NCBI GenBank assembly: GCA_035578155.1
Contig: JAPWDM010000015.1
Coordinates: 7,624,709 to 7,688,708 of the forward strand
Reading direction: 5' to 3'
Length of the DNA stretch: 64,000 nt
Source of the DNA: Brachynemurus nebulosus
Taxonomy: Eukaryota; Arthropoda; Insecta; Neuroptera; Myrmeleontidae
Notes under the pieces: model-generated
Told to the model about the DNA's origin: nothing
The model's database searches: none
Seen by the model: the letters and a program-made list of their open reading frames with translations, nothing else
Made by a program: the position numbers and the translations under genes
Part shown: piece by piece, positions 4,952-45,044 of the stretch
How the letters are laid out: each line of letters starts with the position of its first letter
Position numbering within the stretch: the first letter of the stretch is position 1

Positions 4952-4957
4952 TTCATC
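4952..4957. repeat. 6-bp target-site duplication TTCATC, left
   Basis: TTCATC directly precedes the left terminus (AGTAGTAG) of the palindromic element and is repeated directly after its right terminus at 16236-16241. Six base pairs is the duplication size made by Polinton/Maverick integrases. Confidence 0.9.
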
Positions 4958-4992
4958 AGTAGTAGAAATATGGGGCTACGGGATCCTCCTTC

Positions 4993-5069
4993 CCTCCTGC
5001 CGACTTTTTGAGTGACCTCGGCAGGAGGCAAAACTACCGAGGCGGTTCTAGAAGCCTCCGGCGGTGGGT
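4993..5069. other. Terminal hairpins of the palindromic element (left)
   Basis: A perfect 11-bp stem, CCTCCTGCCGA (4993-5003) with TCGGCAGGAGG (5018-5028), encloses a 14-nt loop. A second stem, GAGGC/GCCTC, follows at about 5039-5063. Both are much more GC-rich than their surroundings. The mirror copy lies at 16124-16200. I infer a role in end recognition or replication, as for hairpins in other linear DNA replicons; this is not shown. Confidence 0.6.
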
Positions 5070-5085
5070 GGAGCAAAACTTGGTC

Positions 5086-5212
5086 TCCAACCTAACGATA
5101 TCTAGTGAAATTTTTTTCTAACCTAACAGAACCCAATGGAACTTGACCTAACCTAACGAAACCTAAGCGAACTTAGCTTAACCTAACAAAATTTTTTTCT
5201 AACCTAAGAACT
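5086..5212. repeat. Degenerate CCTAA (TTAGG-like) motif cluster
   Basis: Seven or more AACCTAAC/CCTAAC words are interspersed within about 125 bp of the terminal repeat. They resemble the insect telomere unit TTAGG but are degenerate and not in a regular array. The mirror copy is at 15981-16107. Confidence 0.55.
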
Positions 5213-5428
5213 GAAAAATTCCCTAACAGATGGCGCAGCCACCTTCGAGCCCTGTGAATTCGCTACTAGATGGCGTTGCTAGTCTGGATTCCTGTGTGTA
5301 AGTTTGAAAAATTGTCAACAGATGGCATCGAAAACCTTTTTTTTGATAGTTAAACTAGCCATTAAAAGATGGCCTTGCTTTCATAATTTTATAATATTTT
5401 TATCTGAAAACAGGCTTAAACTGTCAGC

Positions 5429-5718
5429 TGACGTCACTAAAGGTAAACTGATATCAAACAGCGAAGATTTCTCTCTAATATGCGAAAATGAATTTTATCA
5501 TATGATTGTATATTTTTATCTGAAAACAGGTTTAAACTTGTATAAATTGTCAGCTGACGTCACTAAAGGTAAACTGTTATTAATAGCGAAGATTTCTGTC
5601 TAATATGCAAAAAAAATGAAGCAACAGGTTTTAACCTGCATGGCTACATAAAGTGTGATAAATGACGTCATCAGGCTATCTTTCTGCTATAAAAGGGCGC
5701 GACAGAATTTCTTCAGTT
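5429..5718 (+). promoter_or_regulatory. Promoter of the 132-aa gene: three CRE sites, TATA box, initiator
   Basis: Three perfect TGACGTCA palindromes (CRE-type bZIP sites) lie at 5429-5436, 5555-5562 and 5663-5670. The first two sit in a duplicated context reading CAGCTGACGTCACTAAAGG. A TATAAAAG box (5688-5695) is 27 nt upstream of the A of an arthropod initiator TCAGTT (5713-5718), which is ideal spacing for RNA polymerase II. Transcription would start near 5715, about 94 nt before the ATG. The mirror promoter is at 15475-15764. Confidence 0.72.
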
Positions 5719-5808
5719 ACAATTTTGTTCGAAACTTTAGTGAAAAAACATTAAATCTTATTGTTGTGAATTTTCAATTGTTGTGTTAACAATTAATTAT
5801 TGCCAACA

Positions 5809-6207
5809 ATGGAATCCATTACTACTGGTGCTTCATCTGGAAACAGAAACTTAATTCAAAAAATGGCTGGAAATTTTGTGGAGGAATTGAATCATCTTGG
5901 TGCTGTTAAACGATGGATTAAACTTTCTGATATGCAAATTGGAAAAGTATATAAAATAATGGGCGCAAGTCAATTGCCGTCAAAATTCGATTCATCGAAA
6001 ATGAAGACAATATTGGAATTGGAAATTGGATACATTTCGTTACCAGCGAGATTTGACAATTTGAACGAGCAGATGCTGGCATGGTTGCAAAGCAATCCAA
6101 AACTGGGTATTATGAATAATGGACCCATTGGACTAACTCATAAATTGCAATTCAAAACGTTGGATCTTCTTGAAATCGTGGAGGATGCTGAATGGCGAAT
6201 TTTGTAA
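5809..6207 (+). CDS. 132-aa protein of the palindromic element, possible OB-fold DNA-binding protein
   Basis: First ATG downstream of the TATA/Inr promoter; the frame is open further upstream only through a non-ATG codon. The protein begins MESITTGASSG and is predicted mainly soluble, with no signal peptide or membrane segment. Seen: a basic/hydrophobic middle (IKLSDMQIGKVYKIM, then a Lys-rich stretch) and beta-type segments ending GLTHKLQF. Known: short proteins with a KVYKI...LPARF...GL.H..F layout occur in arthropod Polinton-type repeats. I infer a possible single-stranded-DNA-binding (OB-like) role from that layout only. An identical second copy lies in the right arm. A rearranged fragment of a related gene occurs at 44758-44828 inside the second Polinton-like element, which ties the two families together. 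Confidence 0.62.
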   Translation: MESITTGASSGNRNLIQKMAGNFVEELNHLGAVKRWIKLSDMQIGKVYKIMGASQLPSKFDSSKMKTILELEIGYISLPARFDNLNEQMLAWLQSNPKLGIMNNGPIGLTHKLQFKTLDLLEIVEDAEWRIL

Positions 6208-8922
6208 TTTACTCTCTTCAAAATGTATTATTTAATTGTACTATGGATTTTAAAAATTTCAATATTGTATCAATTTTTACATATATTTAATAAAAATTAT
6301 AAAAAAACAAAAAAAAGACCAAAAAACAAACAAAAAAAACCAAAAAAAAAAACAAAAAAAAACAAAAACAAAAACAAAAAAAAAATTCGATTTTTTTTCA
6401 ATACCCATCGCTAGACATTGATTTATATTCTAGTTTTGATTATGCCAGATTATATTACATTATTTGGTGTTCAATAAAAAAATTTAAAAATCGATTTTTC
6501 AGTTCATGTCTCGTCCCTAAATCACAATTTTGAACTAAGTATAAATCATACATAATACATATTAGTAATATATGTAATAATACATATTAGTAATATTTGA
6601 TATGCATCGTAGGTATTGTAAGGTTTTATGGTGAATAATTATAAAACAAAAAAAAGATTTAATATCCCCTGAAAACGAAAAATTTAATTTTCATAATAAT
6701 TTCAAAACTCTATATTTTATAATGTTATAACCAACTATGCCTTTTAATAGCACAAAAATTCCAGTTGCATACAGCAAAACAGCTGACGAATTAAAATTTC
6801 ACATGCCGCTGTATCGCATATGTAAATCTCATATGTGTACATACATACATGTGACTTGTTGTAATTTTTATACACGAGTATAATACCAATTGAAAAATTT
6901 GCTTGTGAAAAATAGGAAAATCTTCTTCCTCAGCAATTGAAAATTCTATTAATATTAGAAAATTTATTTCCGGTAATAGTATTGTTAGATACTAGAACAA
7001 CTGAAAACTTTTAAAACAAAAATTTTGTTCTATTTGAAAACCATAGTTTTTGTTTGTTTTCGCGCGAATTGTGTACAAAGCGTCAGCTAAATCTTTAATC
7101 AACTAAATCAGCTAAAATTGTTACATACTTACGTTATAAATATCTAAGTGTGTATTTTTCTTTTAAATATATAACTTATAAATACTCATGATTACTTTAC
7201 TATATAACTGTAATCACGCGATATCATGTTATAAAATACATAAGAATTTACTCATTTAATGTAAAAATATTTGGTCATCAACAATTAAATAAAAACGAAT
7301 TTTTTTTAAATATATATAGTAATATAATATTTCGCATATATACAGTACTCTGTTAAAAGTATGGGTTTCTACACCGTTAAAAACATATATTTTATAATAT
7401 CAATATATTGTAAAAAAATCATATTTCTTAATATTTTTAAAACTGAATATGTAATATCAAGAATTTAAAACAGTTTTGAAACATTAATTTCTCCTCATAA
7501 TATTTTTTTTGTCTTAAATTAATAGCACAATGTTCCATATATTTTAAGAAAATTTTTCTTTTAATATTTTATAACTTATCTAAAAAATTTATAGCTATTT
7601 TTTATCCAAAAATTTATTACTTGCTATTGTTAAAAAATTAGTTAAATATATCTATAGGTATTAAGTGACCCCTAGTTTTGTGAAAGACGGTAGTAAGAGC
7701 AATTCATCTTAAATACGAAATTATTTTATCAATGCTAAATAAGCGTTTTTTTTCTCATATTATCATACTCCAATATATTGTATATTATTATAATTTATAA
7801 AAATGTGTTTTATTTATTAAAAAATTTAGCAAAATTTTAAATAATATCACGTCAAAATAATATTCAGAAGTCAATAAAAGACAATAGCAGTAAATTTATT
7901 AAGATAACTATAAATAAATATTAATCTAATGTTGAAATATTTATTAACAAATAGTACTGCTTAGTAGAAAATTAGGTACCTATTGTTTTGTTTTCAAATT
8001 TACCTTTTTGCAATTAAAGAAAATTTTAGTAACTATCGATACCTATATAAAACGATACCCATAAAAGACAAGCATGCTCTGATCTCAACAATTTTTTCCC
8101 ATGTTAAATTTGTATGTTCTTACTTCGCTGAAACTTATTATGTTTATATATTCCCCCAATATTTTCTACCATAAACAATAGTTATAGCAAGCTAGGTAGG
8201 TATTGAATAAGTATTTTTTGTTTGTTAATTTATTGATGATAGAGAAAAAAAAATTTATGATTTTATAGACAGTGAAATACATTTAAACTATTTTTTGCAG
8301 TTTAATTTTGTAAAAACACCTAAAAATTATCAGTCACAGACAAATATTTCTAAGCAAACGAATTGAAAATGTAGTTTTATATCATAAGAATAAATGCGTA
8401 TATATAGGGTGGACAGTAAATAACTCTCATAATTTTTAAAGAGCGGATGAAAACTTTAATTTTGGATTACGAAATTTTATTTTTTTTCCGGAGTTAAGCT
8501 GCATTCAATTAATTAACCCTTTCCTGCACAGCAGTTTTAGATCATTACTGTGCAAACGATACTTCAAATTAGCAAATCATTAATAACATGGGTAAATACT
8601 TATTAGCAAGAATTACATAGTTTACACATATGTTCTATCGCACCAGAATGTTAATAGGACAATGCGATTTAATTGCCTATATTCAGGAGCAAGCAAAAAC
8701 ATTACCTATTTTAATAACTTAGAAAATACACATTACATAGTTCGTTGTAAGAACAATCATTTCGGTGATCTTTTTTTTTTTTTAACGAATTACTAAATTT
8801 GCTTAAGGACTATGGTATGTAAGAAATAACAACACTCACATAATTTTAAAATAATTAACATATAGCTATTGGAAAAGTTACAAAGATTTTTTTAACAACT
8901 TATTAAATGCTGATAGCTTATT
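6208..8922. other. Non-coding interior of the left arm
   Basis: About 2.7 kb between the 3' ends of the two converging arm genes. It contains poly-A/CAAA-rich sequence just after the 132-aa gene (6295-6385) and many TA-rich words. At about 8402-8500 a copy of the GGGTG...AAATAACTCTC MITE end is present. No gene is supported. A strictly homologous stretch occupies 12271-14985. Confidence 0.6.
8403..8505. mobile_element. Fragment of the GGGTG MITE family (left arm)
   Basis: TATAGGGTGGACAGTAAAT followed by AACTCTC matches the left end of the MITE at 2245. A mirror copy is at 12688-12790. No clear partner end was seen, so this is a truncated copy. Confidence 0.45.
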
Positions 8923-10056
8923 TTAATATCTCCTATAGGGCCTTAAGTATAACCCTTCACCCGAAATTTTTTCATCACCATCGTTGGCGACTGTATTCTC
9001 GTCATCATCAGCTTCTCCTTCGCTCGCAGTATCTTCGCTATCGCTAGTAGATGTTTTTTCATCATCATTGAATACATATTTTAACACTGGTTCAATAATA
9101 TCATGCTTTTCCAATTCCCTGGTTATTGAGATAATCCGCTTTCCAATGTCACTTTCCTTTAAATTATTAAAATGGCTTCGTTTTTTCTCGTTTTCGATAT
9201 AATCCGCGAAGCTGGGATTTATAATATGACTCCTTTCCATTAAATTGCACACAGTATTAACCATTTCTTCTCCAATTTGCGTCTGAGTCGCTAAACTTCT
9301 TAGTTCATCAACTAAATGGTTCGGGTCATCAAAATATTCTTCTCCATCAACAGGTTTCGAATGGCCATTATGAAGGTTAGTATTTTCATCATCATATTTG
9401 AAACGTTTAGCTTCTCCATTTATTGAATTAGATGTTGAAGGTTGGTCCTTTTCTTCCGAATTTTTATCTTCTTGTTCTTCATCCTTTGCGCATGCGTTCT
9501 GAAGCTCTTTGACCATTAATATGTCTAGAGCAGTTTGTAAGAGACCAGCTATCTTTGGAGTAAAACTTGTTTCTTTGTAGTTATCAGGCGATGGTAAATG
9601 CTTTTGTTCATCAGATCGATTATCTTCGACATTTACCGATTGTAGAATATTATGCGAGTTTTTTAAAGCGTGGAATTTACTTCTGATTGCTTCTGCTGCA
9701 GCCATCATACTTTCATCAAAAGTATTCAAGTTTCTTTTAGATAGATCTGTATCATTTTCGTGTTGATTTTGAAATACTGGTGCTTTATCTTCCTTTTCTT
9801 CATTTCTTGCTTCAAAACTATATTCGGTTTCATTATCATCATTTTCATCATTAGATTTTGACGATTCACTTTGTCTCCTGTTCTCCGCGCTGTTCACTTG
9901 TGTCCCATTATTTACCGTGGTATATTCAAACTGATTATTTGCGATCTGGTCATTATTGTTTGTTTCATGTTCCTGAGTATGCACTCTTCTTTTCATATGA
10001 CGTAAAAGAGAACTTCTCCGCGAAAATGTCTTGTCACAACGTATACAGTTAAACAT
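8923..10056 (-). CDS. 377-aa C2H2 zinc-finger protein of the palindromic element, left copy
   Basis: Begins MFNCIRCDKTFSRRSSLLRH: one C2H2 finger at the extreme N-terminus (C4, C7, H20, H26, with a long five-residue H-H spacing), followed by a Lys/Arg patch that could act as nuclear localisation. Residues about 30-130 are low-complexity and acidic (Asn/Glu/Asp/Ser). Residues about 130-190 and 250-330 look helical (DELRSLATQTQIGEEMV and SDIGKRIISITRELEKHDI). The C-terminus is a highly acidic tail. No enzymatic motif. The N-terminal finger resembles the N-terminal fingers of the DNA polymerase B gene at 38.7 kb, a common feature of Polinton-type proteins. I infer a DNA-binding or replication/packaging accessory; the exact function is unknown. 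The frame is intact and identical to the mirror copy. Confidence 0.75.
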   Translation of the reverse strand: MFNCIRCDKTFSRRSSLLRHMKRRVHTQEHETNNNDQIANNQFEYTTVNNGTQVNSAENRRQSESSKSNDENDDNETEYSFEARNEEKEDKAPVFQNQHENDTDLSKRNLNTFDESMMAAAEAIRSKFHALKNSHNILQSVNVEDNRSDEQKHLPSPDNYKETSFTPKIAGLLQTALDILMVKELQNACAKDEEQEDKNSEEKDQPSTSNSINGEAKRFKYDDENTNLHNGHSKPVDGEEYFDDPNHLVDELRSLATQTQIGEEMVNTVCNLMERSHIINPSFADYIENEKKRSHFNNLKESDIGKRIISITRELEKHDIIEPVLKYVFNDDEKTSTSDSEDTASEGEADDDENTVANDGDEKISGEGLYLRPYRRY

Positions 10057-10091
10057 TTTGATAGATGTGAAGAGTTCGATTTATAACATAA

Positions 10092-10127
10092 CACTGATTA
10101 GTTTTTATATCGACATGATCTTATATA
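10092..10127 (-). promoter_or_regulatory. TATA/Inr promoter of the left 377-aa gene
   Basis: On the minus strand TATATAAG (10120-10127) lies 32 nt upstream of the A of TCAGTG (10092-10097), about 39 nt before the ATG. It is the mirror of the right-arm promoter at 11066-11101. Confidence 0.65.
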
Positions 10128-10158
10128 GTACAACCAGAGCAGAATTGACGTAAAGTAA

Positions 10159-11034
10159 CGCCAACAGTAAAGCAGCACAGAGACTGGTGCATTTTAGAAT
10201 TTGTTTTTGGTGTAATTTGATGTCTTTATGGCGTATTTTTGATTTAACTTGGAATCATTTGGTGTCATTTGGTGTAATTTTGGTGTATTTTTGGTGTAAT
10301 TTTGGTGTAAATTAGGTGTTATTTGGTGTAATTTTGGTGTAATTTGGTGTATTTTTGGTGTAAATTTGGTGTAAATTTGGTGTATTTTTTGGTGTCATTT
10401 GGTGCACCTTTGGTGCAGTTTGGTGTCATTTGGTGCAGTTTGGTGTCATTTGGTTCACCTTTGGTGCAGTTTGGTGTCATTTGGTGCACTTTTGGTGAAT
10501 TTTGGTGCACCTTTGGAGCAGTTTGGTGTCAATTGGTGCACCTTTGGTGCATTTTGGTGTCATTTGGTGCAGTTTGGTGTCATTTGGTGCACCTTTGGTG
10601 CAGTTTGGTGTCATTTGGTGCAACTTTGATGCAGTTTGGTGTCATTTGGTGCACCTTTGGTGCAGTTTGGTGTCAATTGGTGCACCTTTGGTGCATTTTG
10701 GTGTCATTTGGTGCAGTTTGGTGTCATTTGGTGCAGTTTGGTGTCATTTGGTGCAACTTTGGTGCAGTTTGGTGTCATTTGGTGCACCTTTGGTGCAGTT
10801 TGGTGTTATTTGGTGCACCTTTGGTGCAGTTTGGTGTCATTTGGTGCACCTTTGGTGCATTTTGGTGTCATTTGGTGCAGTTTGGTGTCATTTGGTGCAC
10901 CTTTGGTGCAGTTTGGTGTCATTTGGTGCACCTTTGGTGCAGTTTGGTGTCATTTGGTGCAGTTTGGTGTCATTTGGTGCACCTTTGGTGCAGTTTGGTG
11001 TCATTTGGTGCACCTTTGGTGCATTTTGGTGTCA
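10159..11034. repeat. GT-rich minisatellite spacer between the palindrome arms
   Basis: 876 bp of 10-11-bp units of type TTTGGTGTCA, TTTGGTGCACC and TTTGGTGCAG, grouped into a 31-bp higher-order unit. Units are degenerate on the left (TGGTGTAATTT types from about 10265) and homogeneous on the right, and the array stops abruptly at the right arm. The plus strand is strongly G/T-rich. Long open frames here in several phases (FGVIWCTFGAVWCH-like) follow from the repeat and are not genes. Confidence 0.93.
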
Positions 11035-11065
11035 TTACTTTACGTCAATTCTGCTCTGGTTGTAC

Positions 11066-11101
11066 TATATAAGATCATGTCGATATAAAAACTAATCAGT
11101 G
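11066..11101 (+). promoter_or_regulatory. TATA/Inr promoter of the right 377-aa gene
   Basis: TATATAAG (11066-11073) sits 32 nt before the A of the initiator TCAGTG (11096-11101). With its mirror it forms a divergent pair firing outward from the minisatellite. Confidence 0.65.
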
Positions 11102-11136
11102 TTATGTTATAAATCGAACTCTTCACATCTATCAAA

Positions 11137-12270
11137 ATGTTTAACTGTATACGTTGTGACAAGACATTTTCGCGGAGAAGTTCTCTTTTACGTCATATGA
11201 AAAGAAGAGTGCATACTCAGGAACATGAAACAAACAATAATGACCAGATCGCAAATAATCAGTTTGAATATACCACGGTAAATAATGGGACACAAGTGAA
11301 CAGCGCGGAGAACAGGAGACAAAGTGAATCGTCAAAATCTAATGATGAAAATGATGATAATGAAACCGAATATAGTTTTGAAGCAAGAAATGAAGAAAAG
11401 GAAGATAAAGCACCAGTATTTCAAAATCAACACGAAAATGATACAGATCTATCTAAAAGAAACTTGAATACTTTTGATGAAAGTATGATGGCTGCAGCAG
11501 AAGCAATCAGAAGTAAATTCCACGCTTTAAAAAACTCGCATAATATTCTACAATCGGTAAATGTCGAAGATAATCGATCTGATGAACAAAAGCATTTACC
11601 ATCGCCTGATAACTACAAAGAAACAAGTTTTACTCCAAAGATAGCTGGTCTCTTACAAACTGCTCTAGACATATTAATGGTCAAAGAGCTTCAGAACGCA
11701 TGCGCAAAGGATGAAGAACAAGAAGATAAAAATTCGGAAGAAAAGGACCAACCTTCAACATCTAATTCAATAAATGGAGAAGCTAAACGTTTCAAATATG
11801 ATGATGAAAATACTAACCTTCATAATGGCCATTCGAAACCTGTTGATGGAGAAGAATATTTTGATGACCCGAACCATTTAGTTGATGAACTAAGAAGTTT
11901 AGCGACTCAGACGCAAATTGGAGAAGAAATGGTTAATACTGTGTGCAATTTAATGGAAAGGAGTCATATTATAAATCCCAGCTTCGCGGATTATATCGAA
12001 AACGAGAAAAAACGAAGCCATTTTAATAATTTAAAGGAAAGTGACATTGGAAAGCGGATTATCTCAATAACCAGGGAATTGGAAAAGCATGATATTATTG
12101 AACCAGTGTTAAAATATGTATTCAATGATGATGAAAAAACATCTACTAGCGATAGCGAAGATACTGCGAGCGAAGGAGAAGCTGATGATGACGAGAATAC
12201 AGTCGCCAACGATGGTGATGAAAAAATTTCGGGTGAAGGGTTATACTTAAGGCCCTATAGGAGATATTAA
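11137..12270 (+). CDS. 377-aa C2H2 zinc-finger protein of the palindromic element, right copy
   Basis: Identical in protein sequence to the copy at 8923-10056 (same single N-terminal C2H2 finger, acidic linker, helical middle and acidic tail). The two copies point away from each other across the minisatellite, each with its own promoter about 40 nt upstream. Exact identity implies either very recent origin or ongoing conversion between arms. Confidence 0.75.
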   Translation: MFNCIRCDKTFSRRSSLLRHMKRRVHTQEHETNNNDQIANNQFEYTTVNNGTQVNSAENRRQSESSKSNDENDDNETEYSFEARNEEKEDKAPVFQNQHENDTDLSKRNLNTFDESMMAAAEAIRSKFHALKNSHNILQSVNVEDNRSDEQKHLPSPDNYKETSFTPKIAGLLQTALDILMVKELQNACAKDEEQEDKNSEEKDQPSTSNSINGEAKRFKYDDENTNLHNGHSKPVDGEEYFDDPNHLVDELRSLATQTQIGEEMVNTVCNLMERSHIINPSFADYIENEKKRSHFNNLKESDIGKRIISITRELEKHDIIEPVLKYVFNDDEKTSTSDSEDTASEGEADDDENTVANDGDEKISGEGLYLRPYRRY

Positions 12271-14985
12271 AATAAGCTATCAGCATTTAATAAGTTGTTA
12301 AAAAAATCTTTGTAACTTTTCCAATAGCTATATGTTAATTATTTTAAAATTATGTGAGTGTTGTTATTTCTTACATACCATAGTCCTTAAGCAAATTTAG
12401 TAATTCGTTAAAAAAAAAAAAAGATCACCGAAATGATTGTTCTTACAACGAACTATGTAATGTGTATTTTCTAAGTTATTAAAATAGGTAATGTTTTTGC
12501 TTGCTCCTGAATATAGGCAATTAAATCGCATTGTCCTATTAACATTCTGGTGCGATAGAACATATGTGTAAACTATGTAATTCTTGCTAATAAGTATTTA
12601 CCCATGTTATTAATGATTTGCTAATTTGAAGTATCGTTTGCACAGTAATGATCTAAAACTGCTGTGCAGGAAAGGGTTAATTAATTGAATGCAGCTTAAC
12701 TCCGGAAAAAAAATAAAATTTCGTAATCCAAAATTAAAGTTTTCATCCGCTCTTTAAAAATTATGAGAGTTATTTACTGTCCACCCTATATATACGCATT
12801 TATTCTTATGATATAAAACTACATTTTCAATTCGTTTGCTTAGAAATATTTGTCTGTGACTGATAATTTTTAGGTGTTTTTACAAAATTAAACTGCAAAA
12901 AATAGTTTAAATGTATTTCACTGTCTATAAAATCATAAATTTTTTTTTCTCTATCATCAATAAATTAACAAACAAAAAATACTTATTCAATACCTACCTA
13001 GCTTGCTATAACTATTGTTTATGGTAGAAAATATTGGGGGAATATATAAACATAATAAGTTTCAGCGAAGTAAGAACATACAAATTTAACATGGGAAAAA
13101 ATTGTTGAGATCAGAGCATGCTTGTCTTTTATGGGTATCGTTTTATATAGGTATCGATAGTTACTAAAATTTTCTTTAATTGCAAAAAGGTAAATTTGAA
13201 AACAAAACAATAGGTACCTAATTTTCTACTAAGCAGTACTATTTGTTAATAAATATTTCAACATTAGATTAATATTTATTTATAGTTATCTTAATAAATT
13301 TACTGCTATTGTCTTTTATTGACTTCTGAATATTATTTTGACGTGATATTATTTAAAATTTTGCTAAATTTTTTAATAAATAAAACACATTTTTATAAAT
13401 TATAATAATATACAATATATTGGAGTATGATAATATGAGAAAAAAAACGCTTATTTAGCATTGATAAAATAATTTCGTATTTAAGATGAATTGCTCTTAC
13501 TACCGTCTTTCACAAAACTAGGGGTCACTTAATACCTATAGATATATTTAACTAATTTTTTAACAATAGCAAGTAATAAATTTTTGGATAAAAAATAGCT
13601 ATAATTTTTTTAGATAAGTTATAAAATATTAAAAGAAAAATTTTCTTAAAATATATGGAACATTGTGCTATTAATTTAAGACAAAAAAAATATTATGAGG
13701 AGAAATTAATGTTTCAAAACTGTTTTAAATTCTTGATATTACATATTCAGTTTTAAAAATATTAAGAAATATGATTTTTTTACAATATATTGATATTATA
13801 AAATATATGTTTTTAACGGTGTAGAAACCCATACTTTTAACAGAGTACTGTATATATGCGAAATATTATATTACTATATATATTTAAAAAAAATTCGTTT
13901 TTATTTAATTGTTGATGACCAAATATTTTTACATTAAATGAGTAAATTCTTATGTATTTTATAACATGATATCGCGTGATTACAGTTATATAGTAAAGTA
14001 ATCATGAGTATTTATAAGTTATATATTTAAAAGAAAAATACACACTTAGATATTTATAACGTAAGTATGTAACAATTTTAGCTGATTTAGTTGATTAAAG
14101 ATTTAGCTGACGCTTTGTACACAATTCGCGCGAAAACAAACAAAAACTATGGTTTTCAAATAGAACAAAATTTTTGTTTTAAAAGTTTTCAGTTGTTCTA
14201 GTATCTAACAATACTATTACCGGAAATAAATTTTCTAATATTAATAGAATTTTCAATTGCTGAGGAAGAAGATTTTCCTATTTTTCACAAGCAAATTTTT
14301 CAATTGGTATTATACTCGTGTATAAAAATTACAACAAGTCACATGTATGTATGTACACATATGAGATTTACATATGCGATACAGCGGCATGTGAAATTTT
14401 AATTCGTCAGCTGTTTTGCTGTATGCAACTGGAATTTTTGTGCTATTAAAAGGCATAGTTGGTTATAACATTATAAAATATAGAGTTTTGAAATTATTAT
14501 GAAAATTAAATTTTTCGTTTTCAGGGGATATTAAATCTTTTTTTTGTTTTATAATTATTCACCATAAAACCTTACAATACCTACGATGCATATCAAATAT
14601 TACTAATATGTATTATTACATATATTACTAATATGTATTATGTATGATTTATACTTAGTTCAAAATTGTGATTTAGGGACGAGACATGAACTGAAAAATC
14701 GATTTTTAAATTTTTTTATTGAACACCAAATAATGTAATATAATCTGGCATAATCAAAACTAGAATATAAATCAATGTCTAGCGATGGGTATTGAAAAAA
14801 AATCGAATTTTTTTTTTGTTTTTGTTTTTGTTTTTTTTTGTTTTTTTTTTTGGTTTTTTTTGTTTGTTTTTTGGTCTTTTTTTTGTTTTTTTATAATTTT
14901 TATTAAATATATGTAAAAATTGATACAATATTGAAATTTTTAAAATCCATAGTACAATTAAATAATACATTTTGAAGAGAGTAAA
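12271..14985. other. Non-coding interior of the right arm
   Basis: Mirror of 6208-8922, with the same features reversed. No gene supported. Confidence 0.6.
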
Positions 14986-15384
14986 TTACAAAATTCGCCA
15001 TTCAGCATCCTCCACGATTTCAAGAAGATCCAACGTTTTGAATTGCAATTTATGAGTTAGTCCAATGGGTCCATTATTCATAATACCCAGTTTTGGATTG
15101 CTTTGCAACCATGCCAGCATCTGCTCGTTCAAATTGTCAAATCTCGCTGGTAACGAAATGTATCCAATTTCCAATTCCAATATTGTCTTCATTTTCGATG
15201 AATCGAATTTTGACGGCAATTGACTTGCGCCCATTATTTTATATACTTTTCCAATTTGCATATCAGAAAGTTTAATCCATCGTTTAACAGCACCAAGATG
15301 ATTCAATTCCTCCACAAAATTTCCAGCCATTTTTTGAATTAAGTTTCTGTTTCCAGATGAAGCACCAGTAGTAATGGATTCCAT
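14986..15384 (-). CDS. 132-aa protein of the palindromic element, right copy
   Basis: Exact mirror of the gene at 5809-6207, starting at the ATG whose complement ends at 15384. Its promoter (mirror TATA at 15498-15505, initiator 15475-15480, CRE sites at 15523-15530, 15631-15638 and 15757-15764) lies toward the right terminus, so this gene reads inward from the element end, like its twin. Confidence 0.62.
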   Translation of the reverse strand: MESITTGASSGNRNLIQKMAGNFVEELNHLGAVKRWIKLSDMQIGKVYKIMGASQLPSKFDSSKMKTILELEIGYISLPARFDNLNEQMLAWLQSNPKLGIMNNGPIGLTHKLQFKTLDLLEIVEDAEWRIL

Positions 15385-16235
15385 TGTTGGCAATAATTAA
15401 TTGTTAACACAACAATTGAAAATTCACAACAATAAGATTTAATGTTTTTTCACTAAAGTTTCGAACAAAATTGTAACTGAAGAAATTCTGTCGCGCCCTT
15501 TTATAGCAGAAAGATAGCCTGATGACGTCATTTATCACACTTTATGTAGCCATGCAGGTTAAAACCTGTTGCTTCATTTTTTTTGCATATTAGACAGAAA
15601 TCTTCGCTATTAATAACAGTTTACCTTTAGTGACGTCAGCTGACAATTTATACAAGTTTAAACCTGTTTTCAGATAAAAATATACAATCATATGATAAAA
15701 TTCATTTTCGCATATTAGAGAGAAATCTTCGCTGTTTGATATCAGTTTACCTTTAGTGACGTCAGCTGACAGTTTAAGCCTGTTTTCAGATAAAAATATT
15801 ATAAAATTATGAAAGCAAGGCCATCTTTTAATGGCTAGTTTAACTATCAAAAAAAAGGTTTTCGATGCCATCTGTTGACAATTTTTCAAACTTACACACA
15901 GGAATCCAGACTAGCAACGCCATCTAGTAGCGAATTCACAGGGCTCGAAGGTGGCTGCGCCATCTGTTAGGGAATTTTTCAGTTCTTAGGTTAGAAAAAA
16001 ATTTTGTTAGGTTAAGCTAAGTTCGCTTAGGTTTCGTTAGGTTAGGTCAAGTTCCATTGGGTTCTGTTAGGTTAGAAAAAAATTTCACTAGATATCGTTA
16101 GGTTGGAGACCAAGTTTTGCTCCACCCACCGCCGGAGGCTTCTAGAACCGCCTCGGTAGTTTTGCCTCCTGCCGAGGTCACTCAAAAAGTCGGCAGGAGG
16201 GAAGGAGGATCCCGTAGCCCCATATTTCTACTACT

Positions 16236-16241
16236 TTCATC
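16236..16241. repeat. 6-bp target-site duplication TTCATC, right
   Basis: Directly follows the right terminus of the palindromic element and matches 4952-4957. Confidence 0.9.
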
Positions 16242-21912: not shown

Positions 21913-22430
21913 TGTAAGGTCTCCCCTCTGAGGGTGGTTTCTTTTCCCCAGGAAGGACGTTACTTTGTTGTAGTGTCTCTTAGATTTCTAATCTTACTAG
22001 GCGTAGGTTCTTCCTCTCCTTACTGGATTTAGTTATCGGCAGGAGTCACTGGAAATTCTTATTATAATTTCCACACTTTTGTTGTGAAATTTAACGTTGT
22101 TCACGAAATAAAACAAAATTTACTTTAACGTATTTTATTAATTTAAAGAGATTTGTTTTTACAAAATAAATTTTACAAAATTTTTAGACAAATTTTTGAA
22201 TAAATCGTTATCTTCGTATAATATTTAATAAAAAATCTTTTTAGGGATCGTCCCACGAGATACGAATAAACGTTGTTTAAAAACTAACCGATAACAACTA
22301 ACTAACTCAAACTCAAACTAAACTAAACTAATAATTTACTGTTGAGAGGTTTACTTTGTGAAATTTCATTTTAAATATTAAAAATATTTAAAGTTTCAAT
22401 TACTTTGTCAATTTCACTAGAATTGAGTAG

Positions 22431-22480
22431 AATTTACTAAACGCGTTTTCAATCTCGCGACCATCATCAGAGTAATTGAA
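22431..22480 (-). ncRNA. Hammerhead-ribozyme-like motif, minus-strand copy
   Basis: Reverse complement of the motif at 24465-24514 and identical to it: CTGATGA core, GNRA-capped stem II, GAA, palindromic AACGCGTT in place of stem III, then the stem I strand. Confidence 0.6.
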
Positions 22481-22723
22481 GAAATGTATGTGGGAGTGTA
22501 ATAAATACTCTTAAAAATGAATTTGGGAAAAACCCGTCATTATACTATTTCATATGAAATAGGCTGTACAATAACGTACCTGAAAGACGATGTTGATAAA
22601 CCAGTTTTGAATAATAGAGATAATTATTTTTATCTGTGTAAGGTAAGAATTTTTAACCAATATGTTTAAGAATAAAGGAGGGGTGTCCAAAATGTTAAAG
22701 TTGCTGAAATTATATTTTTTCGT

Positions 22724-23634
22724 TTAGAAGTTCAGTTTTAATAAAGGTGAATTATTTAGGTCGTTTTGATCATTTAAAACCTCCACTTGTGGGTCACTGT
22801 TCAATCTATTAATTTCAAGAGCCTCCAAGAGATTCAGTTTTGTACCCTTTTGACAAATATGTAGAACTTTTGGTTTGTGATTTATATTGGGGAAATGACC
22901 TGTTTCTAAGACGTGTAAACCAAAATTTGAGCTATGAATTTGAGATCCAACATGTTCCTTATACCTTGTCTCGAAGCTGCGACCCGTCTGTCCCACGTAT
23001 TTAGCATTACACTGCGAACAATCTAAGCGGTAAACTCCACTCTTTTTTAGCGGATCAGTTTTTTCTTTTGCGTTAAAAAGTGAACGGCCGAGGTTTCCAA
23101 ATGAACAGAAGGCGGGTGATATATTATATTTTGAAAATAAATTGCCTATTTTTTGTGAGATGACACCTAGGAAAGGGAGTGATACATAATGTTTTGGATC
23201 TGGACCAGCAGTAATAGATGGATATATTTGTTCAATGGTGATTTTGTGTTGTTTTTTACGAATGAGTTCATTTATTAAATGGGTTGAAAAACCGTTGTTG
23301 AGGGCGATTTGTTTTATTGTGTTGAGTTCAGTTTCTCGGTCTTTTGGTAGAAGAGGAATAGCGAATGCTCTGTGGATCATTGAACGATACGCAGCTAGTT
23401 TGTGGGACCTGGAGATAAAGGAGTCAGCAGGTATAGTTAAATCTGAAAATGATGGTTTACGGTAGATATTATAAATGAATTTATTGGTGTCTCTAAGGAT
23501 GGTTATATCAAGGAAATTTATGGATTGGTTTTCTTCTATTTCTTTGGTAAATTGGATTTTTGGGTGGATGCTGTTGAGATATTTTAAATAGTTGTCCAGC
23601 TGTCGGTCTGTTCCTTTGAAACCAACTAGGTTGG
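22724..23634 (-). pseudogene. Penelope-like RT C-terminus and GIY-YIG endonuclease
   Basis: Genuine element sequence starts at about GFKGTDRQLDNYLKYLN; the open frame extending to 23710 includes residues read through the inverted copy and should be ignored. In order: RT thumb region (NFLDITILRDTNKFIYNIYR, then HKLAAYRSMIHRAF), a linker, and the GIY-YIG nuclease (GVYRLDCSQCNAKYVGQTGR, then FETRYKEH), followed by EALEINRLNSDP and the stop at 22724. The upstream RT with its YVDD motif is missing, so this is a 5'-truncated, inactive copy. Penelope elements use such proteins for target-primed insertion. Confidence 0.85.
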
Positions 23635-23678
23635 TTTGAAAGGAACAGAACGACAGCTGGTTGTTCCTTTGAAACCAC

Positions 23679-24221
23679 CTCATTCGTAAAAAACAACACA
23701 AAATCACCATTGAACAAATATATCCATCTATTACTGCTGGTCCAGATCCAAAACATTATGTATCACTCCCTTTCCTAGGTGTCATCTCACAAAAAATAGG
23801 CAATTTATTTTCAAAATATAATATATCACCCGCCTTCTGTTCATTTGGAAACCTCGGCCGTTCACTTTTTAACGCAAAAGAAAAAACTGATCCGCTAAAA
23901 AAGAGTGGAGTTTACCGCTTAGATTGTTCGCAGTGTAATGCTAAATACGTGGGACAGACGGGTCGCAGCTTCGAGACAAGGTATAAGGAACATGTTGGAT
24001 CTCAAATTCATAGCTCAAATTTTGGTTTACACGTCTTAGAAACAGGTCATTTCCCCAATAGAAATCACAAACCAAAAGTTCTACATATTTGTCAAAAGGG
24101 TACAAAACTGAATCTCTTGGAGGCTCTTGAAATTAATAGATTGAACAGTGACCCACAAGTGGAGGTTTTAAATGATCAAAACGACTTAAATAATTCACCT
24201 TTATTAAAACTGAACTTCTAA
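23679..24221 (+). pseudogene. Inverted partial copy of the Penelope-like ORF
   Basis: Encodes the same C-terminal segment in opposite orientation, from the HKITIEQIYPS block through GIY-YIG (KYVGQTGRSFETRYKEH) to the same stop codon. It starts abruptly at CTCATTCG, consistent with 5' truncation or template switching during insertion. Confidence 0.82.
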
Positions 24222-24464
24222 ACGAAAAAATATAATTTCAGCAACTTTAACATTTTGGACACCCCTCCTTTATTCTTAAACATATTGGTTAAAAATTTTT
24301 ATCTTACACAGATAAAAATAATTATCTCTATTATTCAAAACTGGTTTATCAACATCGTCTTTCAGGTACGTTATTGTACAGCCTATTTCATATGAAATAG
24401 TATAATGACGGGTTTTTCCCAAATTCATTTTTAAGAGTATTTATTACACTCCCACATACATTTC

Positions 24465-24514
24465 TTCAATTACTCTGATGATGGTCGCGAGATTGAAAAC
24501 GCGTTTAGTAAATT
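24465..24514 (+). ncRNA. Hammerhead-ribozyme-like motif, plus-strand copy
   Basis: CTGATGA (24475-24481) is followed by a stem II TGGTC/GATTG capped by the tetraloop GCGA, then GAA and AACGCGTT (24498-24505), a self-complementary sequence as in minimal hammerheads that work as dimers. Stem I pairs AATTACT (24468-24474) with AGTAAATT (24507-24514) with a one-base bulge. Predicted cleavage is after the T at 24506. Penelope-like elements are known to carry minimal hammerheads in their terminal repeats. Called from sequence only. Confidence 0.6.
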
Positions 24515-24594
24515 CTACTCAATTCTAGTGAAATTGACAAAGTAATTGAAACTTTAAATATTTTTAATAAACTAAACTAAACTCATTGGTTGGT

Positions 24595-24597
<3 letters not shown>

Positions 24598-24678
<81 letters not shown>
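24598..24678. repeat. (TA)n microsatellite in the 3' LTR
   Basis: About 40 TA units; the same tract lies in the 5' LTR (31738-31820), with different interruptions. Confidence 0.95.
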
Positions 24679-24681
<3 letters not shown>

Positions 24682-25268
24682 GTATCGAAAATTCCAGAAA
24701 AGTTTTAGCAAACATCAATTTAAAAAGAAGAACAAAATTATAAAAGTAATTAACACAAGTGAGATAGATGTATATTAGGTAGTTTTAACATATAATACAT
24801 AATCATAAATGGAACATTATAGAATATTTGAAGAAGCAAATCGAAATTTCCACAAGTACATAATGACAACAACCTACCCTTACTGGCTCACACACAGAAT
24901 AAACGTACTTAAATAAACAAACAATTACATATTTCTAAGAATCTGATGATCCAAAGAAATACAATCAATATTTTTAACATTTTGAAATATATACCACCCT
25001 TATGGCAGAAAATATGTGTACAGAAGAGTACAGTTGAGTACATAAATGATTAAATTTAAGTTAATTTAATATTTAATTGCGGGAAAATGGCGTTTTAAAT
25101 AAAATATAGTGAAATATTGTTATAACTAAATTATATAAGATTGAATATTGAAAAATGTGGTGATGACGTCACAATAAAATGGTCACGCCTCCAAAATAAT
25201 AGCCAATAATATTTCGTAAAAGAAACAAAATGGCGGACCGTAATATACACGAAAAGTGTGACATTACA

Positions 25269-25280
25269 CACCCCCACCCC
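25269..25280 (-). promoter_or_regulatory. Polypurine tract of the LTR element
   Basis: On the minus strand GGGGTGGGGGTG lies directly before the 3' LTR start (TGTAATG), the expected plus-strand primer site. Confidence 0.75.
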
Positions 25281-29474: not shown

Positions 29475-29539
29475 TGAAATATTATTAAAATTATTAGGAT
29501 CAATGACCTTTAACGGTGATTCCGTTCCAAGGTCGTTAT

Positions 29540-31105: not shown

Positions 31106-31282
31106 TTTGAAGATTTACACAACACTTGTTGATTACACTATAACTCAAACACGAAGAAAACTTTACTTCACTGCAAAATTTCACAAACACTTAAAATTTT
31201 CTCCAATACTCGCAACGACGATGACGATTCGAAAGTCGATTTCAAACGCTTTTAATTATATTTTCAGCACTCCTTTACCACA

Positions 31283-32409: not shown

Positions 32410-32413
32410 CCGC

Positions 32414-38130: not shown

Positions 38131-38166
38131 TATATATAGGAGTGGCGCATCGACGCTGGCTCAGTT
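38131..38166 (+). promoter_or_regulatory. TATA/Inr promoter of the polymerase gene
   Basis: TATATATAGG (38131-38140) lies about 30 nt upstream of the initiator TCAGTT (38161-38166). A purine-rich G tract (38111-38122) is just upstream. Confidence 0.7.
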
Positions 38167-38223
38167 ATTTGCAAGAAATTGTGGTGTAAGCATCAAATTA
38201 GCAGCAGCAGCAATAAGCTTGAG

Positions 38224-38713
38224 GTAAGCAACAAATCTTCTAAATAATTATCAAAGGATACAAGGAAAAGCAATTGTAAGTATTAAGTTATTACAGGCAT
38301 CAACATTATTGACCTATTATCATATCCATTTTCATTGTTGTATTCATTATTGTAGTACCTATCCTATTGTAAAACCTATATTGTTGTATCCCTCCTATTG
38401 TTGTATTCATTGTTGTATCTCTCCTATTGTTGTACCTATTGTAGTACCTAACCTATTGTCATACCTGTCCTATTGTTGTACTTATCTTATTGTTGTACCT
38501 ATCCTATTGTTGTATTCATTGTTGTACCTATCCTATTGTTGTACCTATTGTAGTACCTATCCTATTGTCATACCTGTCCTATTGTTGTACTTATCTTATT
38601 GTTGTACCTATCCTATTGTTGTATTCATTGTTGTACCTATCCTATTGTTGTACCTATACTATTGTCGTATTATATTGTTGTAACCGTTTTCTAATACCAA
38701 TATTTTATTTCAG
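38224..38713 (+). repeat. 5'-UTR intron filled by a 17-bp minisatellite
   Basis: Donor GAG/GTAAGC at 38224 and acceptor TATTTCAG at 38713, 10 nt before the ATG at 38724. From about 38310 to 38690 it is a tandem array of GTTGTACCTATCCTATT-type units, with a repeated higher-order block of about 109 bp (compare 38434 and 38543). Open frames inside it are artefacts. Confidence 0.75.
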
Positions 38714-38723
38714 ATAAAGCATA

Positions 38724-41060
38724 ATGGAAGCATTCAATTGTGAAAAGTGTAACAAATCGTTCACACACAAAATTTAAACCGTCACATCAAAAGCATGCAT
38801 TCAGATGTGGAGTTCCAGTGCCATGAATGTGGGAAAAAATTTAATCGTTTGGATAATTTTAAAACACATTTAAAACAAGCACATAATTTGGAAACTCAAA
38901 AACGACCGGCAGCAACAATGGACAACGAGCATTCACCGAACAAAAAATCTAAACTGGACAACAATAATGAACTGGCAACGGCGATGGAAACTGATAATTC
39001 TCTAATTGAAACGAGACGATGTGATATATGCGACCTTGAGATACCAACGTCACGCTACTACGGGCATTTACGGAGTCTTGAACACAAGAATCGCGCAAGT
39101 ACTCAAGTGGAAAACGACGAATTTGTTGAAAAAGTAGCAAGCGCATATAAAAATCGAATTATCAGTTATCGAATACGAGCTTCGGAAAAATTTACAAATA
39201 TCAACGAATTTTTAAAACACATTGAACTCAAAGTGATGCGTCTATTAACACACGAACTGAGACGACATGCAACATTCAAGATAAATATGGAATTATTTGG
39301 ACTGTACACACTTGAAAAGGCTGGAAAAACTCGAGCAGAAACAAAATCATTCAACACGAACAAAATAGTGACCGAGGCAACGGATTTGGATGAAATGTAT
39401 ACCGATTTTTCTCAAACCCTCAACACCAAGAGCGAAGAGTTTAAGCACAAAGAAACAGGATGGACGTTGCAAGAGGTTAAGTACTTGGAAATTAATATTA
39501 ACAAGTTTATTCCTCTTCGCGGGTCATCCTATATACCACTACCGGCGTGGATAGAAAAGAAGAGAGCGGTTGTAAACGTTAAGAATGCTGATGAAGCATG
39601 TTTTTTGTGGTCAGTGGTTTCGGCGTTATATCCAGTTCCACACACCAAACATCCGCAACGAATATCTACATATCCACACTACTCTACAGTTTTAAATGTT
39701 GAAAGAATCAAGACTCCGATAACATTAACAGACGTTAAACAATTTGAGAAACAGAATGATATAAGTATAAACATGTACGGCGTTGATGGGAAAAATATTG
39801 TTGGACCAATATACTACACAGAACAAAGAAGACCTAGACACGTCAATCTGTTATATATTGAAGACGGAGAAAAATCACACTACTGCTGGATTAAGAATTT
39901 AAATAGGCTTGTTGGAAATCAATTATCAAAACACGATGGAACAAAATGGATTTGTGATGGATGTCTTCAGTTTTTCAGAACAGAAGATCGGTTGAAGGAA
40001 CACGAAAAACGAGATTGTAATCATGTCTACACCGTACTCCCTTCACCGAAAAAGTCTGTCTTGAAATTTGAAAAATATCACAAACAACTGAGGATGCCGT
40101 TCGTTATCTACAGTGATTTTGAAACCATTTTGAAGCCAGTTGACACTTGCATGCCTGATCCAGCAGCGTCATTTACCAACACAACATGCATTCATGAACC
40201 ACATAGCTTTTCTTATTATATTAAGTGTAGTTATGATGATTCACTGAATAAGTTTGAACTGTATCGGGGTCCGGACTGTGGAAACAAGTTCCTGGAGATG
40301 TTGGACGAGGAAGTGAAACGTATTTACAATATTATAAAAATCAAAGCGCCAATGAAGCCGCTAACACCATTGGAAGTGATAAAACACGAAACGGCTACAA
40401 AATGTTTCCTTTGCAGCAAACGTTTTTACAACGATCTCAAGAATCGTAAAGTGCGAGACCACGATCATCTTACAGGAGCATATAGAGGTCCTGCGCACAA
40501 CAACTGTAATAAATTATATAGAATGCCGAAATTTGTGCCCGTCATTATCCACAATTTATCTGGATACGATTCACATTTTATCATCAAAGAACTGGGAAAT
40601 GCAAAGGAAAAAGTAAATGTTATACCAAACAACAAAGAAAGGTATATATCATTTACTAAATATGTCCAGCTGAAGAAGAAAATTACGACGACGACCAACA
40701 GAGCGATGATGATTGTGCAGATGAATTTCAAGATAATGATGAAGATGATTTCGATGGTGACGAAGAGGAAGAAAAGGACATTAGAAAAATGAAAACTATC
40801 CAATTACGGTTCATAGACTCGTTTCGATTTATGGCTAGCAGTTTGGATAAATTATCAAGCAATTTAAATACCGATCAACTTAAAGAAACGCGACGAGCAT
40901 TTCCAGAAGATCGCCATTTCAATCTGATGAGGTAGAAAGGGGTGTTTCCATATGAATATATCACAACTTTTGACCGTTTAAATGAAACAGTACTACCGCC
41001 GAAAGAAGCATTCTACAGTCAACTAAATGCAGCACATATTAGTGATGAAGAAATTTTCAT
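38724..41060 (+). pseudogene. Protein-primed-type DNA polymerase B, N-terminal half, broken
   Basis: The natural start is the ATG at 38724, 10 nt after the 5' intron. Zinc finger 1 (FNCEKCNKSFTHK) is broken by a small deletion near 38780, so the long open frame starts at 38795. Fingers 2 and 3 (QCHECGKKF...H, CDICDLEI...H) follow, then a conserved block (LPAWIEKKRAVVNVKN, then DEACFLWSVV), a further finger (WICDGCLQFF), the exonuclease I motif YSDFETI (Asp441 and Glu443 of the open frame), an HNH-like Cys/His block (CFLCSKRF and RDHDHLTGAYRG, about residues 535-572) and IHNLSGYDSHFI (Exo II). A frameshift near 40660 moves the reading to another frame through an acidic linker to FIDSFRFM, a stop at 40933, and KGVFPYEYITTFDRLNE to about 41060. 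The palm and thumb with the catalytic Asp residues are absent. Replicates Polinton-type linear genomes in intact relatives. Confidence 0.88.
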
Positions 41061-41330
41061 ATTCATATTACCTTATGATGAAATCATTTTTAAATCTGTT
41101 TTTACTAATTACAAAAAGTGAATATTTTAAACAAGTATTATATATTCAAAAAATATTTAAGCTTACTGATTTAATATTATTAAACCTAAAATTATTGTCA
41201 AATTTATTGAACCTGTTGAGAAAAAGCGAAATGATTTTATCAGTTGTTGTTTAGAGCATAATTTTTTTTTTAGCGAATGTTAATGGTGATTTTCCACTTA
41301 TTTTTAAAGCATATTTTTTTTGTTTTAGCG
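41061..41330. other. Sequence replacing the lost polymerase domain
   Basis: Abrupt change from polymerase sequence to AT-rich DNA; no coding signal. Confidence 0.4.
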
Positions 41331-43165: not shown

Positions 43166-44757
43166 GGTAATATTTTTAAGTATACAAATTTTGGAATAAA
43201 TTTTAATTTTTTTTTTTTTTTGTTTCAGAATTATTATATATTTTTTTATTTTTATTACTTATTAGTATTTTATAAGTTATTTTATAAGTTAGTATTTCTT
43301 AATTAAAATTAGTTATTAAAAAAATTTTGACTTTTTTCTTCTAAGTACCCAAGTTCAAAACAATTATTTTTTCAGTGTTTTTAGTGCTTATTTAAGTTTT
43401 TTAATTTATGTGTGTAAGTATAATTTATAAAAAATTATTGTGTGTGCAGTATATATATAAGAGCTGTATAGATTTTTTAATGATGTTAAATGATGAACAA
43501 TAAAAAAATTTAAGGTATATAATTGTAACCGATGTGTGAAAAATTTGTTACTTGAGTGTATCTATGTATTACATGTAGGTATATTATAGGATGTAGATTT
43601 ATCATTACAACGTTGATATAAATATGTAATATCTTTCTGCTTAGTAAACGTTTTTTATAATTTGTACGTATAGACAGTGAAATTATTTTTTTATAGAAAT
43701 AAATTTTTTTAAAATTATGCTAAAATATTAAAAATTTCAATTTGTTAATATGTTTATAAGTTATTAATAAAAAAGTAAAAAGAGAGATTTCACATTTCTT
43801 AAAAACATTCCTGTGTTTATATTTCTCTGAAATGAAACTCAGAAACTGTACATGTAAAAACTATTTTTGTTGAAAACTATTTTTTATTATTAGTTCAACA
43901 TTTACATGGTAGTTATATGATAAACATCAGCCAAATTATTTAAGTTAATGATATTTGGAAGACTTATGTGGCTTACATTAGGTGTTAGTGTACACTATGT
44001 TTCATTAGAACTGTTGGGGAGCAGACGTTTTTTCAATCAGCTGTTGAGTCTAATTTTGAGGTTTAAATTATTATTAATCGGTTTACAGGATGGCTGGTTG
44101 TTGAAGAAATTTCTTGATAGTTTGGTGATAAATTATTAAACGGATTCCAGCCTAGTTTCGCTGTATAGTTGTTTATTACAGATGTACCACGGTGCCTTAT
44201 TCTTAGGACTTTATTCTGAAATGATTCTATTTTACCAATAATTTTGTTTTTGAAGCTGTATTTTGTATTTACACGCTAAGAATTTTCATATCAATTTGAG
44301 TGTTCATTTTATAAAACAAAATATGCTTGTTTTTATTGTAGGAAAAAATTTTTTAACTGTTATATCATTGCTGGGAATAAAATTTCAGTGATTAATAATA
44401 TGTATAGCATAAATTTTGTATGCGAGCTCCAATATTAGTATAATTAAAATCACACAATTTTTTTTTGAAACCCACTGTACATCTAACATGTATTTTTATT
44501 TCCATGTCGCAAAATGATATATGTACTGACCTCTCTAAGTTAAATATGGTACTTTATTAGTCTAATGTGAATATATCTTGTTGACTCATTACAGCTGCTT
44601 TTGATTATGTAATTAGATCGAACTAAAACGCGGACAGATGTCATTATGTATACTGCAGGACCAGAGAACATGCAGGACAATTCACGTTAATTATATTATT
44701 TTATTAGATTTATGTGAATATAACTTGTTGACTGGTCTGATGCCTTTGGCGTCTTTT
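43166..44757. other. Mostly non-coding interior of element 2
   Basis: Contains the diverged copy of the 5' non-coding exon block (43372-43413), implying a third gene copy downstream, but no matching coding exons were found. Otherwise AT-rich. Confidence 0.4.
43960..44265 (-). pseudogene. Possible Jockey-type LINE reverse-transcriptase remnant
   Basis: The minus strand shows IESFQNKVLRI followed by RGTSVINNYTAKLGWNPF, reminiscent of the block after the RT core in Jockey-clade LINEs. Short and interrupted by stops. Low certainty. Confidence 0.28.
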
Positions 44758-44876
44758 GATACATATCATTGCCAGCGAGATTTGACAATTTCTAATTCCA
44801 AAACTGTCTTCATTTTTAGCGAATCAAAGTAGTAGCAATATGAGGCTACGGGGACCACCTCCCCACCTCCCGATTT
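44758..44876. mobile_element. Rearranged remnant of the palindromic-element family
   Basis: 44758-44791 matches sense codons of the 132-aa gene (CCAGCGAGATTTGACAATTT identical to 6041-6060). Immediately after, 44792-44826 matches the antisense of the preceding part of the gene (around 5986-6022). From 44828 a terminus reading AGTAGTAGCAATATGAGGCT matches the palindromic element's end (AGTAGTAGAAATATGGGGCT) and runs to 44876. So a terminal fragment with an internal inversion was incorporated next to the right terminal repeat of element 2. Confidence 0.72.
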
Positions 44877-45044
44877 TGCAGAACGATTCACGGTTCACCA
44901 ATTGAATCTGACACAATTTTTTACTATAATTAACCCTTTTTGTAACTTGATCCCAGGGAAAACTCAAGAGAATATTGTTGCATCACTCATTCTGACGAAA
45001 GTTAGGTGTATGTACTCTGTACGTACCACCTCTCAAAGAGTACG

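Follow-up and report, generated by a model that had tools for sequence, protein, structure and literature searches.

An 11,278-bp palindromic transposon with Polinton-type ends in Brachynemurus nebulosus

A transposon at positions 4958-16235 (11,278 bp) of a stretch of Brachynemurus nebulosus DNA consists of two inverted arms around an 876-bp spacer, has Polinton/Maverick-type ends, and is flanked by a 6-bp direct repeat. The whole stretch analysed, hereafter the window, is 64,000 nucleotides long (assembly GCA_035578155.1, contig JAPWDM010000015.1, positions 7,624,709 to 7,688,708 of the forward strand). The structure, the ends, the duplication, the one-sided decay of the array in the spacer, the open genes and the links to Polintons are observed directly. 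We consider the element to be a young non-autonomous Polinton/Maverick derivative, formed when a larger Polinton-type element had one of its ends duplicated in inverted form by copying back, a reading to which we assign a probability of roughly 0.55.

Structure of the element and its insertion site

The arms, spacer, termini and non-coding features of the element are as follows.

4952..4957, no strand, left target-site repeat TTCATC, a direct repeat abutting the left arm
4958..10158, + strand, left arm, 5,201 bp, first bases AGTAGTAG, one mismatch to the right arm
4958..5077, + strand, G+C-rich terminus, 46% G+C over 4958-5300, with an 11-bp inverted repeat CCTCCTGCCGA/TCGGCAGGAGG
5118..5191, no strand, subterminal tandem repeat, 30-bp unit, 2.5 copies
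6208..8900, no strand, A+T-rich stretch of 2.7 kb, 23% G+C, without long open reading frame or recognisable genes
10159..11034, + strand, spacer, 876 bp, TTTGGTG-type minisatellite, left side decayed, right edge sharp
11035..16235, - strand, right arm, last bases CTACTACT
16236..16241, no strand, right target-site repeat TTCATC, a direct repeat abutting the right arm

The two arms (4958-10158 and 11035-16235, 5,201 bp each) pair without indels at a coordinate sum of 21193, the one mismatch lying at 7588/13605. The original prediction had described this indel-free pairing at the same sum, to which the one mismatch is now added, and its estimate that the repeat makes up about 92% of the element is borne out by the arm lengths. 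Foldback-type elements are recognised structurally by inverted repeats that form nearly the whole element around a short middle, and at 92% of its length the element has this form. Pairing ends outwardly exactly at AGTAGTAG and CTACTACT; left of the element it runs at 29-32% per 100-bp block, the flanks being unpaired apart from TTCATC, and inside the spacer it is 0-23% in the blocks examined. Folding of three pieces of DNA taken from both ends gave a weak excess over shuffled sequences (z between -1.6 and -2.3). With one difference among 5,201 paired bases, either the palindrome arose recently, or the arms have converted one another, or the assembler has smoothed them; the figure fits a young insertion.

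Palindromes are a known error of long-read assembly, and the structure is known from the assembly alone; a false inverted duplication has to be weighed. An artefact of this kind would be expected to have mirrored flanks or arbitrary ends, whereas here the flanks differ and the middle is asymmetric. Because the palindrome stops at transposon-like termini set within a direct repeat, and because its spacer is asymmetric, we regard an assembly artefact as very improbable.

The ends of the element follow the Polinton/Maverick motif (AGT)2//(ACT)2, and the TTCATC repeat is a perfect target-site duplication of the 6 bp typical of that group. Among vertebrate Mavericks 5'-(AGT)2//(ACT)2-3' ends are the commonest and intact elements have 6-bp duplications, the repeats of the end motif being thought to permit the jumping-back step of protein-primed replication (PMC8097293, accessible part). 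A 6-bp match at the spacing of the element occurs at 40 of 52,700 window positions (0.08%). A 25-base terminal pattern, fitted to copies already in view, occurs three times in the window (at both ends and at 44828) and in none of 100 shuffles; it has no exact match in IMG/VR or GTDB contigs. The boundaries originally proposed, namely these termini within a TTCATC direct repeat, are confirmed, and the description of the ends as Polinton-type draws support from the vertebrate Maverick rule (PMC8097293, accessible part) as well as from the links to a PolB gene and a second terminus presented below.

The spacer had been described as an 876-bp minisatellite, which is correct for its length and too simple for its content: the first 26 bases are without self-similarity (matches begin at 10185), and the next ~210 bp consist of decayed TTTGGTG units. 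A regular array then extends from ~10400 to 11034, the right arm starting immediately after it. The array lies in one orientation, with 70 TTTGGTG against 0 CACCAAA, and the unit has no exact match in IMG/VR. Across 22 bins of 40 bp, of which neighbours are non-independent, array regularity correlates with position (Spearman 0.69, P 0.0004), a gradient that arises mainly from the decayed left portion, regularity being almost flat from ~10400 onward. The left ~240 bp of the array are irregular, whereas towards the right its units stay regular until they stop abruptly; on this evidence the left junction appears to be native and the right one to be a break. The right junction has only TT in common with the array unit, and a 2-bp overlap carries no evidential weight.

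A one-sided array edge would be produced equally by duplication within the chromosome, in which an ordinary inserted Polinton broke internally, the free end turned back to copy the left end, and the product rejoined at the right terminal repeat, so that the element never moved as a palindrome. Such an event would also have kept the 6-bp duplication. We consider it unlikely, however, as rejoining would have been needed exactly at the old right terminus, and mismatches do not cluster in a way that would betray an earlier, short terminal repeat. We favour copying back of a Polinton end before insertion, for which a mechanism is proposed below.

Gene content of the arms

Each arm contains two genes, both open and convergent, the outer encoding 132 and the inner 377 amino acids. 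Their positions, with those of the promoter-like sites, are as follows.

5688..5717, + strand, TATA box and TCAGT initiator-like site of the 132-aa gene, from a pattern search
5809..6207, + strand, 132-aa gene, left copy, with the motif YISLPARFDN; shards at 44755-44828 support coding
8923..10056, - strand, 377-aa gene, left copy, with a C2H2 finger at the N-terminus, an acidic middle and the end GEGLYLRPYRRY
11066..11100, + strand, TATA box and TCAGT of the 377-aa gene, right copy, from a pattern search, mirrored at 10127 on the minus strand
11137..12270, + strand, 377-aa gene, right copy, mirror of the left copy
14986..15384, - strand, 132-aa gene, right copy, mirror of the left copy

The inner frame spans 385 codons between stops and is far beyond chance, since 200 random arms matched for dinucleotide composition gave frames of at most 159 codons. 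The outer frame spans 136 codons; 95% of the random arms reach at most 111, and given their maximum of 159 this frame is insecure on length alone; its coding is supported by the relic shards found elsewhere in the window.

The proteins were compared with Pfam, a set of 5.8 billion proteins, IMG/VR, solved structures, PHROGs and PolB sequences, mostly using queries that carried 1 or 3 extra residues before the first Met. The 132-aa protein matched no family in the Pfam scan, nothing at E 0.001 in the 5.8-billion protein set (2 candidates examined), nothing in IMG/VR and, by sequence, none of the solved structures. Its structure prediction from the single sequence reached a mean pLDDT of 40, and for this reason no fold is claimed. 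The idea that it might be an OB-fold single-strand-binding protein finds no support in the present data. The 377-aa protein had no match at E 0.001 in the protein set (1,866 candidates examined) and none in IMG/VR; its C2H2 finger was detected by Pfam at E 0.0005, under the curated cut-off. With both proteins as queries, PHROGs returned one match below 1e-3, to a family of unknown function, at residues 2-46 of the 377-aa protein.

The pattern TATAWAR-N18-30-TCAGT, which was picked after reading the sequence, occurs in the window only at 5688 and 11066, at their mirrors 15505 and 10127, and at 38133, the start of a PolB gene. Shuffled sequences contain 1.05 such sites per strand (up to 4), or ~2 over both strands; three independent sites are about what shuffling yields and constitute no excess, so that any interest lies in where they fall.

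Pfam scans of 13 stop-to-stop frames of at least 61 aa in the arm and 3 in the spacer, a set that could miss shorter, spliced or very diverged genes, revealed in the element no family of polymerases, integrases, proteases, packaging ATPases or capsid proteins. Two Lys/Asn-rich frames over an A-tract and one spacer frame gave weak matches to unrelated Pfam families, and one frame across the left end and another outside the element matched no Pfam family.

Polinton-related loci in the window and a proposed origin of the palindrome

Two further loci of the window bear on the affiliation of the element.

38133..41118, + strand, PolB gene, broken and shortened, its start preceded on the 5' side by a promoter-like site and a minisatellite
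44755..44877, + strand, remnant of a related element, 132-aa gene shards followed immediately on the right by a 50-bp copy of the terminus starting AGTAGTAG

The terminus copy (44828-44877) is 82% identical to the first 50 bp of the element, from base 1; its score is 32, a value that 100 shuffles of the flanks did not approach (highest 14). When the entire arm served as query, a control stretch (one of four) scored 33, above the 32 of the terminus match, so that the distinction of this match is limited to the 50-base test. The two shards, FDSLKMKTVLELEI and YISLPARFDN of the 132-aa gene, lie in opposite orientations and have modest tblastn E-values (0.010 and 0.011). Their 24 codons comprise 16 that are identical, 6 with silent changes and 2 with residue changes, and 8 of the 11 base changes fall at third codon positions. 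The locus looks like one relic inserted into another. Terminus and shards together sit 3.6 kb from the PolB pseudogene, and no whole autonomous copy was seen in the window.

The PolB gene, at 38.7-41.1 kb, encodes an Endonuclease VII-type domain above the Pfam cut-off and has a match below threshold (E 0.016) to the Pfam family of organellar and viral PolB. At a cut-off of E 0.001 the gene has 282 relatives, and it has no match in IMG/VR. Among the 120 relatives listed, those with names are mostly from insects, the best (from Episyrphus) is 47% identical, and some carry the Pfam viral and organellar PolB domain. Because these 120 match 38771-41118 in more than one piece, past the open frame of the query, the gene is evidently broken. 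We take its family to be the PolB of Polintons.

By tblastn against the element, 120 of the 282 relatives gave 18 matches, contributed by 9 proteins and confined to the N-terminal finger of the 377-aa protein and its mirror, with no polymerase match beyond the finger; together with the Pfam scans this upholds the original prediction that no core gene is present. In a single comparison the first finger of the 377-aa protein matched residues 1-22 of the Episyrphus relative at 12 of 22 positions (E 1e-5), and when fingers were compared across the 120 listed of the 282 relatives and the window PolB, the four closest to the 377-aa finger were all N-terminal, at residues 2-4. The possibility that the 377-aa protein is a shortened PolB was rejected beyond the finger, the best E against the window PolB being 0.10. 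The C2H2 finger is a common module, and the remainder of the 377-aa protein is without a PolB match.

Five distant PolB loci contained no convincing relative of the 132-aa or 377-aa gene, the best tblastn E-values being 0.41 and 0.69. A shared gene order at the PolB locus, read from 44.8 to 38.3 kb as 132-aa gene, A+T-rich stretch, convergent finger gene and minisatellite, was also considered and amounts to similar order only: outside the terminus and shards the best DNA score was 28, against a maximum of 28 in 40 shuffles and 29, 33, 23 and 28 in four control stretches.

Under the copying-back interpretation, the parental end would have held the terminus, the 132-aa gene, the A+T-rich stretch, the finger gene and the start of the minisatellite. 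While the linear DNA was being copied by strand displacement, a 3' end that had broken or stalled within the minisatellite would have folded back and primed on the arm just outside the array, beside the finger-gene promoter and 876 bases back. Copying of this strand to its own 5' end would give a hairpin in which the minisatellite forms an 876-base loop, later the spacer, and a second round of synthesis would give a linear molecule bearing the identical end twice. As such a molecule would have an origin and an integrase site at both ends, a helper PolB could copy it and a helper integrase could insert it, both enzymes presumably being supplied in trans by other Polintons. We infer the fold-back event, the help in trans and an inversion that preceded insertion. 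The fold-back step is read from a single copy, no second full copy and no whole helper Polinton having been seen in the window.

Each strand of the element could form a 5.2-kb hairpin, and readthrough over the middle would yield long double-stranded RNA. The element may instead belong to a stable satellite lineage of palindromic, hairpin-forming Polinton parasites that have long bred true with two genes of their own in each arm. In favour of such a lineage, both genes are open and have promoter-like starts, the search of 5.8 billion proteins, within its sensitivity, recovered no relative of either, and 6 of the 8 changed codons in the 132-aa shards are silent. A single palindromic copy is known, however, and the sharp right edge of the array and the near-identity of the arms also fit one recent event, so that we hold this reading to be doubtful. 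Similarly tentative is the notion of a self-maintaining palindromic satellite that forms a 5-kb hairpin, carries its two genes twice, depends on Polinton proteins and might direct double-stranded RNA against its helper; virophages, which live off giant viruses, offer a parallel.

Comparison with known systems

The element shares with Polintons/Mavericks its (AGT)2//(ACT)2 ends and 6-bp duplication, and a Polinton-type PolB pseudogene lies in the same window. It differs in its terminal repeat (5,201 bp, against 46-1,447 bp in intact vertebrate Mavericks) and in its size (11,278 bp, against 12.7-24.6 kb), both ranges being those of the accessible part of PMC8097293, and in that no core genes were detected. 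No palindromic, foldback, non-autonomous or long-inverted Polinton was found in the literature searched, whose scope lay mostly outside subscription papers and Repbase, and the accessible parts of PMC6431247, PMC3573991, PMC5127031 and PMC5601938 describe none. The original claim that no described Polinton class has such a structure is uncontradicted in that literature.

Like the element, copies of Foldback/Galileo in Drosophila consist almost wholly of long inverted repeats, contain inner tandem repeats and are non-autonomous, and Galileo shows foldback forms arising from a normal transposon (PMC3573991, accessible part). Galileo belongs to the P superfamily and has terminal repeats of up to ~1.26 kb and 7-bp target sites, in contrast to the open genes and Polinton-type ends of the present arms and to the 6-bp duplication (PMC3573991, accessible part). 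The element could on this comparison be a foldback transposon of another superfamily that resembles Polintons at its ends by chance, long terminal repeats with inner tandem repeats being typical there (PMC3573991, accessible part); the ends, the 6-bp duplication, the Polinton links and the 7-bp sites of Galileo (same source) speak against this, and we judge it highly unlikely. Since foldback structure is known in other transposons such as Galileo, we regard the element as a variant and not as a new kind.

With virophages and other satellites the element would share a dependence on the enzymes of a helper; it differs from them in that no capsid, packaging or replication gene was detected in it. 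The inverted repeats of mavirus have been likened to Polintons (PMC5127031, accessible part).

Protein-primed replication is expected for Polintons largely by analogy with adenoviruses and tectiviruses (PMC8097293, accessible part). The literature search produced no usable account of snap-back genomes of protein-primed replicons. Defective adenovirus genomes with the left end at both ends arise in virus infection and need a helper. They resemble the element as we interpret it in being protein-primed linear replicons with one end duplicated in inverted orientation and in requiring a helper, and differ in being products of infection, whereas the element is a chromosomal insertion. Because papers on adenovirus packaging place the packaging signal near the left end, genomes with the left end twice would be favoured. 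If the copying-back interpretation is true, a snap-back-like product that lies in a chromosome, correctly ended and flanked by a 6-bp duplication, would record protein-primed replication and would imply that a replicated linear form of a Polinton can be inserted; Polintons would then gain a class of defective or satellite forms.

Inverted repeats beyond the palindrome

Another large inverted repeat lies at 22376-24569 (898 bp, 99.2% identity, approximately 400 bp between the arms), and both of its arms encode a near-identical peptide, which to our eye is reminiscent of the GIY-YIG end of a Penelope-like element; its minus-strand frame had no Pfam match at 1e-3. An inverted repeat pair of 94% identity (36561-36878 and 44877-45180) carries an AT microsatellite, and position 44877 is both the end of the terminus relic, a 50-bp copy of the palindromic element's terminus, and the start of one repeat copy. 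Downstream of that copy in coordinates, and elsewhere, the window contains the following features.

Other features of the window
45576: THAP-domain frame
26053-31114: retroelement (parts: reverse transcriptase, RNase H, integrase zinc-binding)
53683-55476: DDE_1 transposase-domain frame, plus HTH_psq domain
63435-63836: DDE_1 transposase-domain frame

The retroelement, which we class as Ty3-type, is flanked by repeats that are approximately 96% identical (24534-25269 and 31670-32410; 21913-22332 and 31307-31725). Because HTH_psq is present alongside DDE_1, we take the 53683-55476 frame to be pogo-like.

Arm end and finger protein of the palindrome

CCTAA(C) is repeated in the subterminal part of the palindrome arm (5100-5215), which we regard as resembling TTAGG, the insect telomere unit. 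The 377-aa protein, which has an N-terminal C2H2 finger, terminates in ISGEGLYLRPYRRY (12226-12267, mirrored at 8926-8967). Its ISGE-G conforms to the adenovirus-type protease cleavage rule, and this putative site is a possible sign that the product may be a virion protein.

Minisatellites 5' of two genes

A CCTATTGTTGTA-type minisatellite (38348-38682) is located between the start of the broken Polinton-type PolB gene and its promoter-like site, apparently within a 5' intron. A minisatellite is likewise present directly 5' of the palindrome's finger gene.
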